A stretch of 48,780 bases of DNA from Deltaproteobacteria bacterium (GTDB lineage Bacteria > Myxococcota_A > Polyangia > Polyangiales > JADJMO01). The position numbers and the translations under genes are program-made. The stretch is taken from the NCBI GenBank assembly GCA_022843175.1, contig JALHOE010000028.1, positions 12,720-61,499 on the forward strand, written 5' to 3'. A model generated the notes under the pieces. That model ran no database searches and had not been told where the DNA came from. It saw nothing but the letters and a program-made list of their open reading frames with translations. Below are positions 2,230 to 8,421 of this stretch, piece after piece (positions within the stretch are counted from its first letter, which is position 1; each line of letters starts with the position of its first letter).

Positions 2230-2364
2230 ATGGGACCCTATCGCTCGCTCGAGCGCGACGAGCCGCGCGACGACCCCTGGCCGCTGAGCCTGTTGGTCGT
2301 CGCCGCGGTCCTCGCGTGGTGGCTGGTCGAGCACGCAATCGGCTCGATCGCCGGCCGGTTCTAA
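2230..2364 (+). CDS. Small single-pass membrane protein (44 aa)
   Basis: ATG 2230 to TAA 2362-2364 encodes 44 residues: a charged N-terminus (YRSLERDEPRDDPW), then one hydrophobic span of about 18 residues (LSLLVVAAVLAWWLV), then a short tail AIGSIAGRF. The layout is that of a small tail-anchored or inner-membrane peptide. It starts 60 bases from the divergent esterase start (2169) and its stop overlaps the stop of the minus-strand gene at 2361 by three bases. No clear ribosome site was found. The fit between intergenic space, charge pattern and membrane span argues for a real gene, but chance cannot be excluded at this length. Confidence 0.5.
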   Translation: MGPYRSLERDEPRDDPWPLSLLVVAAVLAWWLVEHAIGSIAGRF

Positions 2365-3155
2365 CGCCCCTTGAACTCGGGCTTGCGCTTCTGCAAGAAG
2401 GCCATCAGTCCCTCGCGCGCGTCCTCGGTGCCGAGGAGCACGCCGAGCTTCTCGCGCAGCATCGGGAGCGCGTCCTCGATGCGCTGGGAGTCCTGCGCGT
2501 AGAGCGCCTCGAGGCCGTGCTTGAGCGCGAGCGGCGCCTTGCCGGCGAGCTTGCCGGCGAGCTCTGCGACGCGCGCGTCGAGCTCTTCGGGGGGGTGGCA
2601 CTCGTTGAGCAGCCCGAGCTCCGCCGCCTCGTGCGCGTCGATGCGCTCTCCGAGGAGCATCATCTGGGTGAGCCGGCGGCGGGGGACCAGCCGGGTGAGC
2701 ACCGCCATGATCATCATGGGGAACAGTCCAACGTCGACCTCGGGGGTGCCGAGCTGCGCGTCGATCGACGCGAACGCGAACGTGGACGCCGCGACGAGCC
2801 CGAGCCCGCCGCCCATCGCGTGGCCGTTGACCTTGGCGACGAGCGGCTTGCTGTAGCCGCACATCGTCGGGAGCAGCTTGGCGTAGTCGCCCCCGTCGCT
2901 GTCGAACGGCTGGAGCGCGCCGCTCTCGCCGGCGGTGATCGCGGAGAAGTCGGCGCCGGCGCAGAAGGCCTTTCCTGCGCCGGTGAGCACGACGACGCGG
3001 ATCGCCTCGTCTTCGGCGGCGTCGGCGAGCGCCCAGCGCAGCTCGTTGACCATCTCGGGCCCGATCGCGTTGCGGCGCTCGGGGTTGTTGAGGGTGATCG
3101 TGGCCACCGGCCCCTCGGCGACGACGATGATCTTGCGATACGCGCGCGGTTCCAT
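2361..3155 (-). CDS. Enoyl-CoA hydratase/isomerase family (crotonase) protein
   Basis: The product is 264 residues from ATG 3155, which overlaps the upstream stop as TGATG; a GTG three bases earlier is an alternative. Crotonase-fold marks are ERRNAIGPEM near residue 25, the oxyanion segment GKAFCAGADF, NGHAMGGGLGLV and LGTPEVDVGLFP. In classical hydratases two glutamates act; the one after GGG is replaced here by Gly (GGGLGLV), while the PEV glutamate is kept. The reaction may therefore be isomerisation, hydration by a single acid/base, or another crotonase reaction. It is translated together with the BKACE gene upstream, which points to breakdown of a specific acyl-CoA in the cytoplasm. Confidence 0.88.
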   Translation of the reverse strand: MEPRAYRKIIVVAEGPVATITLNNPERRNAIGPEMVNELRWALADAAEDEAIRVVVLTGAGKAFCAGADFSAITAGESGALQPFDSDGGDYAKLLPTMCGYSKPLVAKVNGHAMGGGLGLVAASTFAFASIDAQLGTPEVDVGLFPMMIMAVLTRLVPRRRLTQMMLLGERIDAHEAAELGLLNECHPPEELDARVAELAGKLAGKAPLALKHGLEALYAQDSQRIEDALPMLREKLGVLLGTEDAREGLMAFLQKRKPEFKGR

Positions 3156-4054
3156 CACTGCTTCTTCAGGTTGAGGAGCTGGTAGGTCTCATCGATCGTC
3201 GCGGGGCGGCGACCGATGTCGCGCACCATGCGGACCGCCACGTCGACGAGCTCGCCGTTGGACTGCGCGACCTTGCCGTTGGGCAGGTAGAAGTTGTCCT
3301 CGAGGCCGCAGCGGATGTTGCCGCCGAGGACCAGCGCCGCGGCGATCATCCGCCACTGCGGACGCGAGATGCCGATCACCTCCCACTCCGAACCGGCCGG
3401 CATCAGCTTGGTCTGCAGCTGGAGCGACTCGATGGTCGGGGGGATGCCGCCGAGCACGTTGAGGATGAACGAGAACTGCAGCGGCGGCTTGAGGATGCCC
3501 ATGTCGAGCAGCGGCCAGATCCCGTGGGTGTGGCCGGTGTCGAAGCACTCGAGCTCCGGCTTCACGCCGGCCTCGTTCATCGCCGAGAGCATCTTGATGA
3601 TCTTCCCGTAGGTGTTGGGGAAGACCATGTCGAACACGAAGTTCTTCCGCTTCTCGGAGTACTTCGCGTAGTTCATCGTGCCCATGTTGAGCGCGGCGAT
3701 CTCCGGCTTCGACTCGCGGATGTACGTGGTCTGGTCGCTCACGTCCTCGAGGATGGTGCCCGTCGAGTAGTTGAGGACGATCGGCGAGCGCTTGCGGACC
3801 TCCTCCTTGATGCGCGCAAAGGTCGCCGGGTTGAACGTGGGCGAGCCGTCGTCGTTGCGCGCGTGGATGTGGGCGACGGTGGCGCCGGCCTCGAACGCGC
3901 GGCGGCACTCCTCGCCGATCTCCTCGGGCGTGTAGGGGATGTTCTTGCACTGATCGCGGTTGGCGAGGACGCCGGTGACCGCGCAGGTGACGACGCACGC
4001 TTCGCGCACGTCGTGCGAGGGCATCTTGCCCAGACCGGTGGTGGGATCGCTCAT
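3155..4054 (-). CDS. Beta-keto acid cleavage enzyme (BKACE, DUF849 family)
   Basis: The 299-residue protein starts at ATG 4054 with GGAG upstream. The AHIHAR motif (His62, His64) supplies two ligands of the catalytic metal in this TIM-barrel family, and LNYSTGT, ELECFDTGH and GGNIRCGLEDN are further family marks. BKACE enzymes condense a beta-keto acid with acetyl-CoA, giving acetoacetate and a new CoA thioester; the founding member acts on 3-keto-5-aminohexanoate in lysine fermentation. Substrate specificity varies widely and cannot be read here. It sits 10 bases after marR and overlaps the crotonase gene, so the three form one operon. Confidence 0.9.
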   Translation of the reverse strand: MSDPTTGLGKMPSHDVREACVVTCAVTGVLANRDQCKNIPYTPEEIGEECRRAFEAGATVAHIHARNDDGSPTFNPATFARIKEEVRKRSPIVLNYSTGTILEDVSDQTTYIRESKPEIAALNMGTMNYAKYSEKRKNFVFDMVFPNTYGKIIKMLSAMNEAGVKPELECFDTGHTHGIWPLLDMGILKPPLQFSFILNVLGGIPPTIESLQLQTKLMPAGSEWEVIGISRPQWRMIAAALVLGGNIRCGLEDNFYLPNGKVAQSNGELVDVAVRMVRDIGRRPATIDETYQLLNLKKQ

Positions 4055-4064
4055 CTCGTGTCTC

Positions 4065-4538
4065 CTATTTCTCGGTCTTCTCGGCGACCTGCTTGCGGAC
4101 GTTCGTGGCCAACTTGTCGAGCAGCTGGAGGAGCTGGCCGAGCTCCTCTCGGTTGAGCGCCTGCTCGAACGCGCTCTTGAAGATCTCGAACGGCTCGAAC
4201 TTCATCGAGCGCGCGAGCTCGTGCCCCTTCTTGGTGAGCCGAATGTGAACGACGCGCCGGTCGTCGGACGAGCGCTTGCGCTCGACGAGGCCCTCGCGCT
4301 CCATGCGGTCGACGATCCCGGTGACGGTGCTGTTCTGCGCGTTGATCCGCTCGGAGAGCTCGCTGAGCGAGAGGTCGCCGATGTCCTCGAGGATCTTCGC
4401 GACCGAGAGCTGCGGTCCGGTGAGGCCGTGCCGCGCCGCCTGGTCCTTCGTGAGGCGACGAGACTCCGTGTAGAGGTAGATGATCGCTTCGACGATGCGA
4501 TCGACCTGCTGCTTGTAGTTCTCCGGGATGCGCGCCAT
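4065..4538 (-). CDS. MarR-family transcriptional regulator
   Basis: The 157-residue protein from ATG 4538 has a winged helix at about residues 50-110: LSLSELSERI, then NSTVTGIVDRMEREGLVER as recognition helix, then SSDDRRVVHIRLTKKG as the wing. MarR proteins act as dimers, usually repressors released by a small ligand, often an aromatic or acyl-CoA compound. It is the first gene of an operon with BKACE and a crotonase. The ATG directly abuts a palindromic block (4539-4569) that recurs at the start of the acyl-CoA carboxylase gene at 6844, so it probably controls itself and that gene. There is no ribosome site before the ATG, consistent with a leaderless transcript. Confidence 0.92.
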   Translation of the reverse strand: MARIPENYKQQVDRIVEAIIYLYTESRRLTKDQAARHGLTGPQLSVAKILEDIGDLSLSELSERINAQNSTVTGIVDRMEREGLVERKRSSDDRRVVHIRLTKKGHELARSMKFEPFEIFKSAFEQALNREELGQLLQLLDKLATNVRKQVAEKTEK

Positions 4539-4569
4539 GGGAATTGTTTAGCGTACGAAACTTTCGCGT
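4539..4569 (-). promoter_or_regulatory. Putative MarR operator/promoter, copy 1 (autoregulation)
   Basis: Read on the minus strand, this 31-base block contains the palindrome CGAAAGTTTCG (4556-4566) followed by GCTAAACAATTCCC and then the marR ATG. It matches 6811-6841 at about 26 of 31 positions, including 14 identical bases around the palindrome. TAAACA lies six bases before the ATG, where a leaderless -10 element would sit. Binding by MarR is inferred. Confidence 0.6.
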
Positions 4570-4653
4570 TCTTCGCTCTGGCGTCAAGCCGCAACAGGCC
4601 GATCCCTGTCGCATCCATCCACGGTGCGACGGTTTCCGAGGGAAAACGGGCTC

Positions 4654-5490
4654 GTGAGGCGCACCGCCCTCGCGCTCGCGATGCTGCTGCTCCCCGCCTC
4701 GGCTCGCGCGCAGGACACCGCGCCCCCGATCGCGGAGGGAAACACCGATCAAACGCGGCTCGCCGGCCAGCTCGGCGGCACGTGGTCGTCGGGCAACAGC
4801 AAGAGCTACTCCACGAACTTCCAGGCGCGCGTCTCGCACCGCCGCGGCGACGAGCAACTCATGTGGAGCGGCGCGCTCAACTACGGCCACGCCACCGCGC
4901 CCAAGCTCGATGACTCCGGGGATCCGGACGCCGAGGAGCACCGCTTCAAGACCGACTCGCTCTATTACACGCGCCTCCGCTACGACCACTTCTTCCTCGA
5001 GAAGAACGCGGTCTTCCTCGCGGCGCTCGCGTTCCGCGACACGTCCTCCGGGTTTCGCGCGCGCTACTCGCCGTACCTCGGCTATCAGCGGACGCTCGTC
5101 GCCGTGGAGTCGTTCGAGGCGTGGGTCGACGTCGGGTATCGCGCCGCGCACGAGATCTTGTGGCTCGACCGTAGGGCTCGGGCCGACGGGTTCGCGGAGC
5201 GGCGGTGGGTCCACGGCCCGCTCGTGACGCTGGGCATCGAGCTGAAGCTCAACGACACCCTCGACCTCGACATCTCGGTCGAGGGCCAGCAAGCGGTCAA
5301 CCGCGAGAAGGACTTTCGGGTCTACAGCATCACCAACCTGACCAACCACGTCGGCAAGGGCTTCTCGCTCGGCATGAACTTCAACGTGCGGTATCTCCAC
5401 GAGCCGATCGGAGATCGTTCGCCGCTCGATACGCAGCTTCAGCTCGTGGCGTTGCTCGACCACACCATCGAGGGTGCGAAGAAGAAGTGA
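4654..5490 (+). CDS. DUF481-family outer-membrane protein
   Basis: I place the start at GTG 4654 because GAGGGA (4638-4643) is well spaced before it and a signal peptide follows directly (LALAMLLLPASARAQ, cleavage after ARA). The 278-residue product resembles the DUF481 family of putative outer-membrane beta-barrels: WSSGNSKSYSTNFQ near the N-terminus of the mature protein, alternating aromatic strands such as TDSLYYTRLRYDHFF and SGFRARYSPYLGY, and a terminal strand ending VALLDHTIEG. A GTG at 4624 would add ten residues without a ribosome site. It diverges from marR across 115 bases. The family's function is poorly known. Confidence 0.85.
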   Translation: MRRTALALAMLLLPASARAQDTAPPIAEGNTDQTRLAGQLGGTWSSGNSKSYSTNFQARVSHRRGDEQLMWSGALNYGHATAPKLDDSGDPDAEEHRFKTDSLYYTRLRYDHFFLEKNAVFLAALAFRDTSSGFRARYSPYLGYQRTLVAVESFEAWVDVGYRAAHEILWLDRRARADGFAERRWVHGPLVTLGIELKLNDTLDLDISVEGQQAVNREKDFRVYSITNLTNHVGKGFSLGMNFNVRYLHEPIGDRSPLDTQLQLVALLDHTIEGAKKK

Positions 5491-5561
5491 CGAATCGGTG
5501 GAACCGACGCTGTCGCGTCGAGCTCTGCGCGATGCGCTGCGCTGCGCGCCATCTATCGAGT

Positions 5562-6773
5562 ATGCGGCCCGTCCTCGTTCTCTCTCTCGTTGCTCTGTTG
5601 GGCTGCAAGCGCGGCGAGGCCGTTCGCACGACCGCGGCCGCTCCTCCGACGCCTGCGGCCACCGGGGGCGGCCCGAGCGCGCCGCTGCTGCCCGGCGCGA
5701 CGTGCGCGTTCCCCTCGAAGATCGAGGAGGACGTCACGATCAAGGCGGGGTGCGTCGCCGACGTGCGGAGCAACGTGCTCGTCGCGAACGGTCGCACGCT
5801 GACGATCGAACCCGGCGTGACGCTGCGCTTTCACGGGGCGAGCTACCTCGAGATCGGCCACAAGGGCTCGCGCCTCGTCGCACGCGGCGAGAAGAGCCAG
5901 CCCATCGTCTTTACGTCTGCGGCGTCCTCGCCCCGCCGCGGCGACTGGGTGGGCCTGGTGTTCGACGACGCCCCCGGCGAGGGCACCGTGATCGAGCACG
6001 CGATCATCGAGTACGCCGGCCGGGAGAGCCACGGCGGGCAGGGCGCGTTCACCGCGTTTCGCGCGTTCCCCGAGCGCCGCGTCACGGTCCGCAACGTGAC
6101 CTTCCGCCACAACGAGACCGCGGTCGCGAACCGACACGCCGGCTCCACGTTCGCCGCCTTCGAGCGCAACATCTTTGCCGACAACACCCGCGCGATGCGG
6201 GTGAGCCCGTCGGTGCTCGCGGCGATCGGCGAGGGCAATGAGCTCGCCGACGTCACCGAGATCACCGGCGGCACCGTGACCAAGAAGGGCACGTTTCCCA
6301 AGAGCGCTGGCGGCTACCTCGTCGCCGAGCCGATCTACGTGAACGGCGAGGGAGCCGAGGTCGCGTCGCTCACCCTCGCGCGGGGCAGCGTGCTGCGGTT
6401 CGCTCCGAAGACCTGGCTCGAGGTGGGCACCGGCGGCCCGGCCGAGCTGTTCGTCGCGGGCGTCACCCTCACGAGCGCCGCAGCCAAGCCCGCGCCCGGC
6501 GACTGGGTCGGCCTCTTCTTCGGCGACAAGACCAAGCGCGCGCACGTGACCGACACCCGCATCGAGTACGCGGGCGGCGAAGAGCACAACGGCGACGCCG
6601 CCGTGACGTTCGTCGGCAGCAAGAGCTGGCAGGCGCTCGACGTGCACTTCGGGGGCGTGACGTTTCGCCACCTGCAGCAGGCGCACTTCTCGTCGAACGG
6701 CGAGGGCTGCTCCAAGGCGCTCGATCCGCGCCACGGCATCGGCTGGGCCGGCGTGACCGAGCCCTGCCGCTGA
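5562..6773 (+). CDS. Lipoprotein with duplicated beta-helix-like domain
   Basis: ATG 5562 gives 403 residues. The signal MRPVLVLSLVALLGC has a lipobox ending at Cys15, followed by a Pro/Ala/Gly linker. Two similar halves follow: each has a segment on high-temperature-like beta-helix rungs (LTIEPGVTLRF and LARGSVLRFAPKTWLEVG), a GDWVGLVF or GDWVGLFFGD motif, and an IEYAGRESHGG or IEYAGGEEHNG motif. Such rungs occur in right-handed parallel beta-helix surface proteins. The internal repeat shows the domain was duplicated. It follows the DUF481 gene by 71 bases on the same strand. Role unknown; surface binding or carbohydrate contact is only a guess. Confidence 0.75.
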   Translation: MRPVLVLSLVALLGCKRGEAVRTTAAAPPTPAATGGGPSAPLLPGATCAFPSKIEEDVTIKAGCVADVRSNVLVANGRTLTIEPGVTLRFHGASYLEIGHKGSRLVARGEKSQPIVFTSAASSPRRGDWVGLVFDDAPGEGTVIEHAIIEYAGRESHGGQGAFTAFRAFPERRVTVRNVTFRHNETAVANRHAGSTFAAFERNIFADNTRAMRVSPSVLAAIGEGNELADVTEITGGTVTKKGTFPKSAGGYLVAEPIYVNGEGAEVASLTLARGSVLRFAPKTWLEVGTGGPAELFVAGVTLTSAAAKPAPGDWVGLFFGDKTKRAHVTDTRIEYAGGEEHNGDAAVTFVGSKSWQALDVHFGGVTFRHLQQAHFSSNGEGCSKALDPRHGIGWAGVTEPCR

Positions 6774-6807
6774 TCTCGGCCGTTTCGGGGACCCTCCGTG
6801 TTCCCCC

Positions 6808-6841
6808 TTGACGCGAAAGTTTCGCACACGAAACATTCGCC
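6808..6841 (+). promoter_or_regulatory. Putative promoter plus MarR operator, copy 2
   Basis: TTGACG (6808-6813) fits a -35 element. Two inverted repeats follow, CGAAAGTTTCG (6814-6824) and the weaker CGAAACATTCG (6829-6839). The block 6811-6841 is nearly the same as the marR upstream block and ends two bases before the carboxylase ATG (6844). No ribosome site is present, so the mRNA may be leaderless and the operator would cover the whole core promoter. Confidence 0.6.
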
Positions 6842-6843
6842 GC

Positions 6844-8421
6844 ATGTCCGAATCCCTGCTCCGCCAGCTGGTCAAAGACCTCGAGGAACGTCGTGCGCAG
6901 GTGAAGCGCCTCGGCGGTGAGGAGCGGATCGCGAAGCAGCACCAGCGCGGGAAGCTCACGTGCCGCGAGCGGCTCGAGAAGTTCTTCGACGACGGCGTGT
7001 ACTTCGAGATCGGCACCCACGGCACGCAGATGGGGCTCGCTTCGGGCGCCGACGGGCGGGACAAGCCGCCGGCCGACGGCGTCGTCACCGCGTTCGGCAA
7101 GGTCGACGGGCGGATCGTCTGCGCCGCGGCCTACGACTTCACGGTCAAGGGCGGCAGCATCGGACCGACCGGCGAGGAGAAGGTCACGCGGCTGCGCTCG
7201 ATGGCGCTCACCGGTCGCCACCCGATCGTGTGGTTCATCGACAGCGGAGGCGCCCGCATCGATCCCGGTTCGTCCCACGTCGACCAGATCTCGCAGTTCG
7301 CCGGCACCGGCTTCCTCTTCCGCGAGCAGGTCGTGATGAGCGGCGTCGTGCCGCAGGTCGCGGCGATGGTCGGCCCCGGCGCCGCGGGCACCGCGTACAT
7401 CCCCGGTCTCGCCGACTTCGTGCCCATGGTGAAGGGCATCGGCTCACTCGCGCTCGCGGGCCCCGCGCTCGTGAAGGCCGTCACCGGCCAAGAGATCGGC
7501 GAGCAGGAGCTCGGCGGCTCGAAGGTGCACTGCGAGGTCAGCGGCGTCGGCGACGTCGAGGTGCCGACCGACGAGGAGTGCGTGGCGCTCTGCCGCCGCT
7601 ACCTCAGCTACTTCCCGTCGAGCTGCGACGACATGCCGCCGGTCCTGCCGTGCACCGATCCGATCGAACGTCGCGACGACGCGCTGCTCGACCTGCTCCC
7701 CGACTCGAACCGCAAGCCGTACGACATGTACAAGCTGATCAAGATGGTCGTCGACCATGGCGAGATCCTCGACATCAAGCCGCGGTTCGGGCGCTCGCTC
7801 ATCACCTGCCTCGCGCGCATCGGCGGGCGGAGCGTGGGCATCATCGCCAACCAGCCGATGCACATGGGCGGCATCCTCGAGAACGACAGCGCGGACAAGG
7901 GCGCGCACTTCATTCAGATCTGCGACGCGTTCAACATCCCGCTGGTGTTCCTCCAGGACGTGCCCGGCTTCATGGTCGGCAGCAAGGTGGAGCACGCCGG
8001 CATCATCCGCCACGGCGCGAAGATGTTGCACGTGATGTCGGCGGCGACGGTCCCCAAGCTCACCGTCGTGGTGCGCAAGGCCTACGGCGCCGGCTATTAC
8101 GTCATGTGCGGCCGCGCCTACGAGCCCGATCTGATCGTGTCGTGGCCCACCGGCGAGATCAGCGTGATGGGCGCCGAGGGCATGCTCGGCATCGCTGCGC
8201 GCAAGATGTTCGGCGACAACGAGCCGCCGCCCGAGGTCAAAGAGGGGATCCTCAAGGAGATCCGCGGCCGCATCGACATCTACAAGTCGGCTGGCTGGGC
8301 CTATATCGACGACGTCATCGATCCCCGCGACACGCGCCGCGCGCTCGCGTGGGGCCTCGAGCTCTCGGCGCGCAAGAAGGCGCTCCGCCCGACCAGGAAG
8401 CACGGCGTCATCCCGGTCTGA
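6844..8421 (+). CDS. Acyl-CoA carboxylase, carboxyltransferase (beta) subunit
   Basis: The 525-residue protein is full length for the propionyl-/methylcrotonyl-CoA carboxylase beta family. It has RGKLTCRERLEKFFDDG near residue 40, the N-terminal crotonase half with DFTVKGGSIGPTGEEK and WFIDSGGARI, and the C-terminal half with GIIANQPMHMGGILENDSA, FLQDVPGFMVG and RKAYGAGYYVMCG, which lie around the acyl-CoA and biotin sites. It transfers CO2 from carboxybiotin to an acyl-CoA; the biotin carboxylase/BCCP partner is not in the window. ATG 6844 was chosen because the shared operator abuts it. Its stop directly touches the stop of the minus-strand kinase gene. Likely co-regulated with the BKACE operon. 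Confidence 0.92.
   Translation: MSESLLRQLVKDLEERRAQVKRLGGEERIAKQHQRGKLTCRERLEKFFDDGVYFEIGTHGTQMGLASGADGRDKPPADGVVTAFGKVDGRIVCAAAYDFTVKGGSIGPTGEEKVTRLRSMALTGRHPIVWFIDSGGARIDPGSSHVDQISQFAGTGFLFREQVVMSGVVPQVAAMVGPGAAGTAYIPGLADFVPMVKGIGSLALAGPALVKAVTGQEIGEQELGGSKVHCEVSGVGDVEVPTDEECVALCRRYLSYFPSSCDDMPPVLPCTDPIERRDDALLDLLPDSNRKPYDMYKLIKMVVDHGEILDIKPRFGRSLITCLARIGGRSVGIIANQPMHMGGILENDSADKGAHFIQICDAFNIPLVFLQDVPGFMVGSKVEHAGIIRHGAKMLHVMSAATVPKLTVVVRKAYGAGYYVMCGRAYEPDLIVSWPTGEISVMGAEGMLGIAARKMFGDNEPPPEVKEGILKEIRGRIDIYKSAGWAYIDDVIDPRDTRRALAWGLELSARKKALRPTRKHGVIPV

Follow-up and report, generated by a model that had tools for sequence, protein, structure and literature searches.

Two palindromic sites in a Polyangiales genome as probable operators of a MarR-family regulator of acyl-CoA genes

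The window, the whole 48,780-nt stretch of DNA analysed here, contains two sites built on a 16-bp palindrome, GTTTCG-N4-CGAAAC, one before a marR gene and the other before an acyl-CoA carboxylase carboxyltransferase gene. Both are very probably operators of the MarR protein encoded at 4065-4538, which, judging from sequence comparison, would repress its own operon, the carboxyltransferase gene, and at least two further loci until released by a ligand.

The marR gene (4065..4538, minus strand) encodes a 157-aa MarR-family regulator whose match to PF01047 (E 4.5e-16; 58.9 bits against a cut-off of 24.6) establishes a MarR winged-helix domain, and its profile is matched by many solved MarR structures. 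The stretch NSTVTGIxDRME, the expected recognition helix, is nearly invariant among the MarR orthologues. Downstream on the same strand lie genes for a beta-keto acid cleavage enzyme family protein (BKACE; 3155..4054, PF05853, E 1.8e-87) and a crotonase-family enoyl-CoA hydratase/isomerase (2361..3158, PF00378, E 3.5e-51). Because marR and BKACE are separated by 10 bases and BKACE overlaps the crotonase gene by 4 bases, the three genes form a single operon. The carboxyltransferase gene (6844..8421, plus strand; 525 aa, PF01039, E 2.5e-142) lies 2.3 kb from this operon and is transcribed in the opposite direction. Its product is of the propionyl/methylmalonyl type, matches propionyl-CoA carboxylase beta chains in the PDB, and has TIGR01117 as its best NCBIfam match, with a score below the model's cut-off. 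A DUF481 gene (4624-5490) diverges from marR and could be co-regulated, as the marR operator is located upstream of it, at a distance of ~60 bases or more from its start; other families carry a different exported-protein gene in the divergent position.

Each palindrome lies within a 31-base block that a sequence-only reading of the window had singled out, at 4539..4569 (minus) before marR and 6811..6841 (plus) before the carboxyltransferase gene. The blocks stand where that reading placed them, ending 0 and 2 bases before the ATGs at 4538 and 6844, and are identical at 25 of 31 positions instead of the roughly 26 it had counted. They had been described as centred on CGAAAGTTTCG, which occurs exactly in both (minus 4566-4556; plus 6814-6824) and in only three copies in the 9.75-Mb genome. 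This centre is misplaced: the conserved palindrome, seen upstream of marR in 23 relatives, is centred 7-8 bases closer to each ATG, and CGAAAGTTTCG comprises its left arm plus flank and nothing more. As an operator in its own right CGAAAGTTTCG was rejected, since its third genomic copy, at an unrelated gene (L001), scores only 1.9 bits by weight matrix and most relatives lack the 11-mer. The marR operator, GTTTCGTACGCTAAAC (4546..4561, minus; 31.5 bits), departs from the palindrome by one mismatch. The carboxyltransferase-gene operator, GTTTCGCACACGAAAC (6819..6834, plus; 34.1 bits), has perfect arms, flanked by outer arms GCGAA/TTCGC that extend it into a longer palindrome spanning 6813-6840.

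The weight matrix was derived from 19 marR promoters, all outside the window's family. Scanning the window with it places the carboxyltransferase site first (34.06 bits) and the marR site second (31.47), with the next match at 13.5 bits; the top score in 200 order-3 random windows is 17.8. Ranked first and second by a matrix from other families, the two blocks stand far above chance.

Orthologues of the regulator are found in Sorangium, Polyangium, Minicystis, Labilithrix, and Sandaracinus (order Polyangiales, Myxococcota). Taking one genome per species gives 80 loci, of which 79 have enough upstream DNA to be testable. A motif search in relatives, the check that the sequence-only reading had proposed, finds the palindrome before marR in all 79, each at 21.4 bits or more, against a median of 7 bits for the best other place per locus. 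Some of these loci share contigs with the matrix training genomes and do not count as independent; the majority, among them the cultured strains of Sorangium, Polyangium, and Minicystis, played no part in building the matrix. The marR-BKACE-crotonase order is kept in nearly all relatives, and the marR operon also takes in the carboxyltransferase gene in Sorangium, Polyangium, Minicystis, and many members of families f12 and f6. The window's family has this gene detached from the operon, with an operator of its own in 5/5 genomes, and the 16-mer before the G003 copy is identical to the window's marR operator. In the distant relative's locus L180, the carboxyltransferase gene, set ~0.8 kb apart, likewise carries its own operator, at 38.5 bits. 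An operator at detached carboxyltransferase genes is the outcome that the regulon idea predicts, here tested on other genomes. Together with the four-gene operons elsewhere, these counts lend good support to the proposal that MarR controls itself, BKACE, the crotonase, and the carboxylase as one pathway.

Outside the order, the 235 genomes sampled from the phylum contain just one orthologue (G093), which has genes for BKACE and a carboxyltransferase as neighbours and a related site whose spacer is longer by one base. Counted against a MarR regulon is G027 (L041/L199), which retains marR and the operator while BKACE and the crotonase gene are gone from the neighbourhood and an 802-aa gene follows. 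In two Sandaracinus-type loci (L233, L254), several repeated half-sites GTGCGAAAC lie downstream of the main operator, upstream of marR, and their repetition suggests multiple MarR binding.

The genome-wide survey consisted of pattern searches followed by matrix scoring of the matches. Plain counts of TTTCGNNNNCGAAA were rejected as a survey because they are too unspecific in AT-richer genomes, as was a one-mismatch survey, which returns ~70-100 sites per genome, mostly by chance. A degenerate-pattern search combined with the matrix yields four strong loci in the window's genome (G000): marR, the carboxyltransferase gene, and two others, both with orthologous sites in the sister species G001. 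The first of these (C48:15089-15102; L140:3090; 32.8 bits), a perfect 24-bp palindrome of the AGATGTTTAGTGTGCTAAACATCT type, lies between a gene for a MopE-motif lipoprotein and a TerB-like/acyl-CoA (AMP) ligase operon, and its sister counterpart (G001:C4:113543; L142; 30.4 bits) is conserved in position. The second (C70:35092-35105; L141:5093; 24.2 bits) lies between genes for a histidine phosphatase and a divergent MerR protein, with a counterpart at G001:C138:35120 (22.2 bits). The histidine phosphatase was rejected as an order-wide target: it is present in only 3/56 genomes, with no site at its G020 copy, which makes it at most a genus-level regulon member. Elsewhere, a site precedes an acyl-CoA dehydrogenase-thiolase operon in G053 (f5; 33.8 bits), and in genus g2 a weak site (~12 bits) with a perfect core precedes an MFE-2-like dehydrogenase gene divergent from the carboxyltransferase gene. 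The theme of this predicted regulon is acyl-CoA degradation. Two f6 genomes (G051 and G033; L144-L151) have more strong operator sites than other families, several of them before lipoprotein or exported-protein genes instead of acyl-CoA genes.

Both window sites coincide with promoter-like elements. A putative -35 element of marR, TTGACG (4582..4587, minus), is followed after N17 by AAAGTT (4564-4559), so that transcription is predicted to begin near 4552 and the leader to measure about 12-14 nt. For the carboxyltransferase gene, a putative TTGACG (6808..6813, plus) is followed after N17 by a weak -10, AAACAT (6831-6836), with a predicted start at 6843-6844 and a leader of 0-1 nt; here the operator lies within the spacer, between -35 and -10, a geometry peculiar to the window's genome. 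TTGAC occurs in 67/79 relatives, mostly 17-20 bases upstream of the TA that precedes TTTCG, and the palindrome therefore covers the -10 region and predicted start. This is a usual position for a repressor, and the regular succession of TTGAC, ~17 bases, and operator bears out the earlier proposal that the operator covers the core promoter.

Other origins for the shared block were weighed against a MarR operator. Chance, or recent duplication of a promoter between neighbouring genes, would fit two blocks just 2.3 kb apart with 25/31 identity; its probability is practically nil, as none of the 200 random windows reaches the block scores and the persistence of the element throughout the order and at unlinked carboxyltransferase loci has already refuted it. 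It is also quite improbable that the block merely represents a class of strong promoters (TTGAC-N17-TATTTC) or serves some other regulator. The element does sit mostly in a promoter-like frame, but its downstream arm, CGAAA, lies beyond the -10 and is conserved equally to the upstream arm; it is rare genome-wide, G000 having four strong copies, and its position with respect to the -35 is different at the window's carboxyltransferase gene. Although one G000 site adjoins a MerR gene, the element is attached to marR throughout, not to merR.

A separate question is whether, as the sequence-only reading had it, leaderless transcription explains why the operators abut start codons, with operator, promoter, and translation start forming one unit. 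We consider this full version unlikely. In its favour, neither window ATG is preceded by a Shine-Dalgarno-like motif, as that reading had observed, whereas BKACE, the next gene after marR, has AGGAG, and the AAACAT of the carboxyltransferase promoter ends 7 bases before the ATG. Of the 57 relatives in which marR has just one candidate start codon, the predicted leader is 6-11 nt in 24, with a Shine-Dalgarno motif in 0/24, against 57/76 for the BKACE genes of the same loci. Against it, the predicted leader is longer in the other 33, with a Shine-Dalgarno motif in 11/33, and in sister species G001 ~37-39 nt separate the operator from the start of either gene, each behind a Shine-Dalgarno motif; at the G001 carboxyltransferase gene TTGACG-N17-GAATCT overlaps the operator, the leader is ~40 nt long, and GGGGAGGAGG precedes the ATG. 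The transcription starts are moreover predictions, and the -10 boxes in the window are weak. Strictly leaderless transcripts are thus not generally supported, the window's carboxyltransferase gene alone being predicted to start within a base of its ATG. Given the split of 24 versus 33 loci, a short Shine-Dalgarno-free marR leader is, on predicted starts, a recurring but inconstant arrangement. Tentatively, in much of the order (Sorangium, Polyangium, Minicystis, Labilithrix) one 16-bp palindrome might serve as repressor site, -10/start region, and nearly the whole marR 5' leader, the autorepressor being translated from a near-leaderless, Shine-Dalgarno-free mRNA and the downstream genes via normal ribosome sites.

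The sites, their palindromic form, promoter position, conservation, and target genes are read directly from the genomes compared, and the MarR regulon built on them would operate as follows. By analogy with the MarR family, a dimer of this MarR would bind GTTTCG-N4-CGAAAC. The bound protein would overlap the -10 and start of the marR-BKACE-crotonase promoter and, as family members do, block RNA polymerase. MarR would then be freed from the DNA by a ligand, a step likewise modelled on MarR biology; this ligand is probably one of the pathway's acyl-CoAs or beta-keto acids. With MarR released, expression of MarR, BKACE, the crotonase, and the carboxyltransferase would rise together, as would that of two or more further loci.

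For a myxobacterial order with large genomes, in which we found no description of such an acyl-CoA regulon, these results provide a regulator together with its operator and a list of targets. By tying BKACE to carboxyltransferase, crotonase, acyl-CoA ligase, and beta-oxidation genes, they also reduce the range of substrates to be considered for BKACE, and cultured Sorangium or Polyangium would allow a direct test of the recurring short Shine-Dalgarno-free marR leader. A literature search without subscription papers found none linking BKACE to a MarR regulator, none containing the operator strings, and none useful for mapped Sorangium transcription starts. The regulon, of ordinary MarR type, is thus unreported in the literature searched, which, with subscription papers missing, is weak evidence of novelty.

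Among known systems, operators of the SlyA/RovA type have the consensus TTAGCAAGCTAA, TTAG-N4-CTAA (PMC5797941). They share with the sites here two 4-base arms at a 4-base spacing (TTCG-N4-CGAA versus TTAG-N4-CTAA), and since TTTAG-N4-CTAAA occurs at some of the present sites (G000:C48), the two share one architecture. The half-site here is mostly TTTCG/CGAAA, however, the targets are acyl-CoA genes, and the regulator scores 32.4 against the SlyA model (NF002926), below its cut-off of 120. By score its best NCBIfam relative is HpaR (TIGR02337), and at 65.6 against a cut-off of 121.2 it is not HpaR itself. As with HpaR and other autoregulated MarR repressors of catabolic operons, the regulator gene adjoins catabolic genes and the operator lies on the core promoter; the pathway genes differ, being BKACE, crotonase, and carboxyltransferase. 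LiuR, PsrA, and FadR, which regulate acyl-CoA and branched-chain catabolism, are MerR, TetR, or GntR proteins with other operators. Their regulons resemble the one proposed here in that one regulator serves scattered acyl-CoA degradation genes through small palindromic operators, whereas the protein used here is a MarR that belongs to none of those families.
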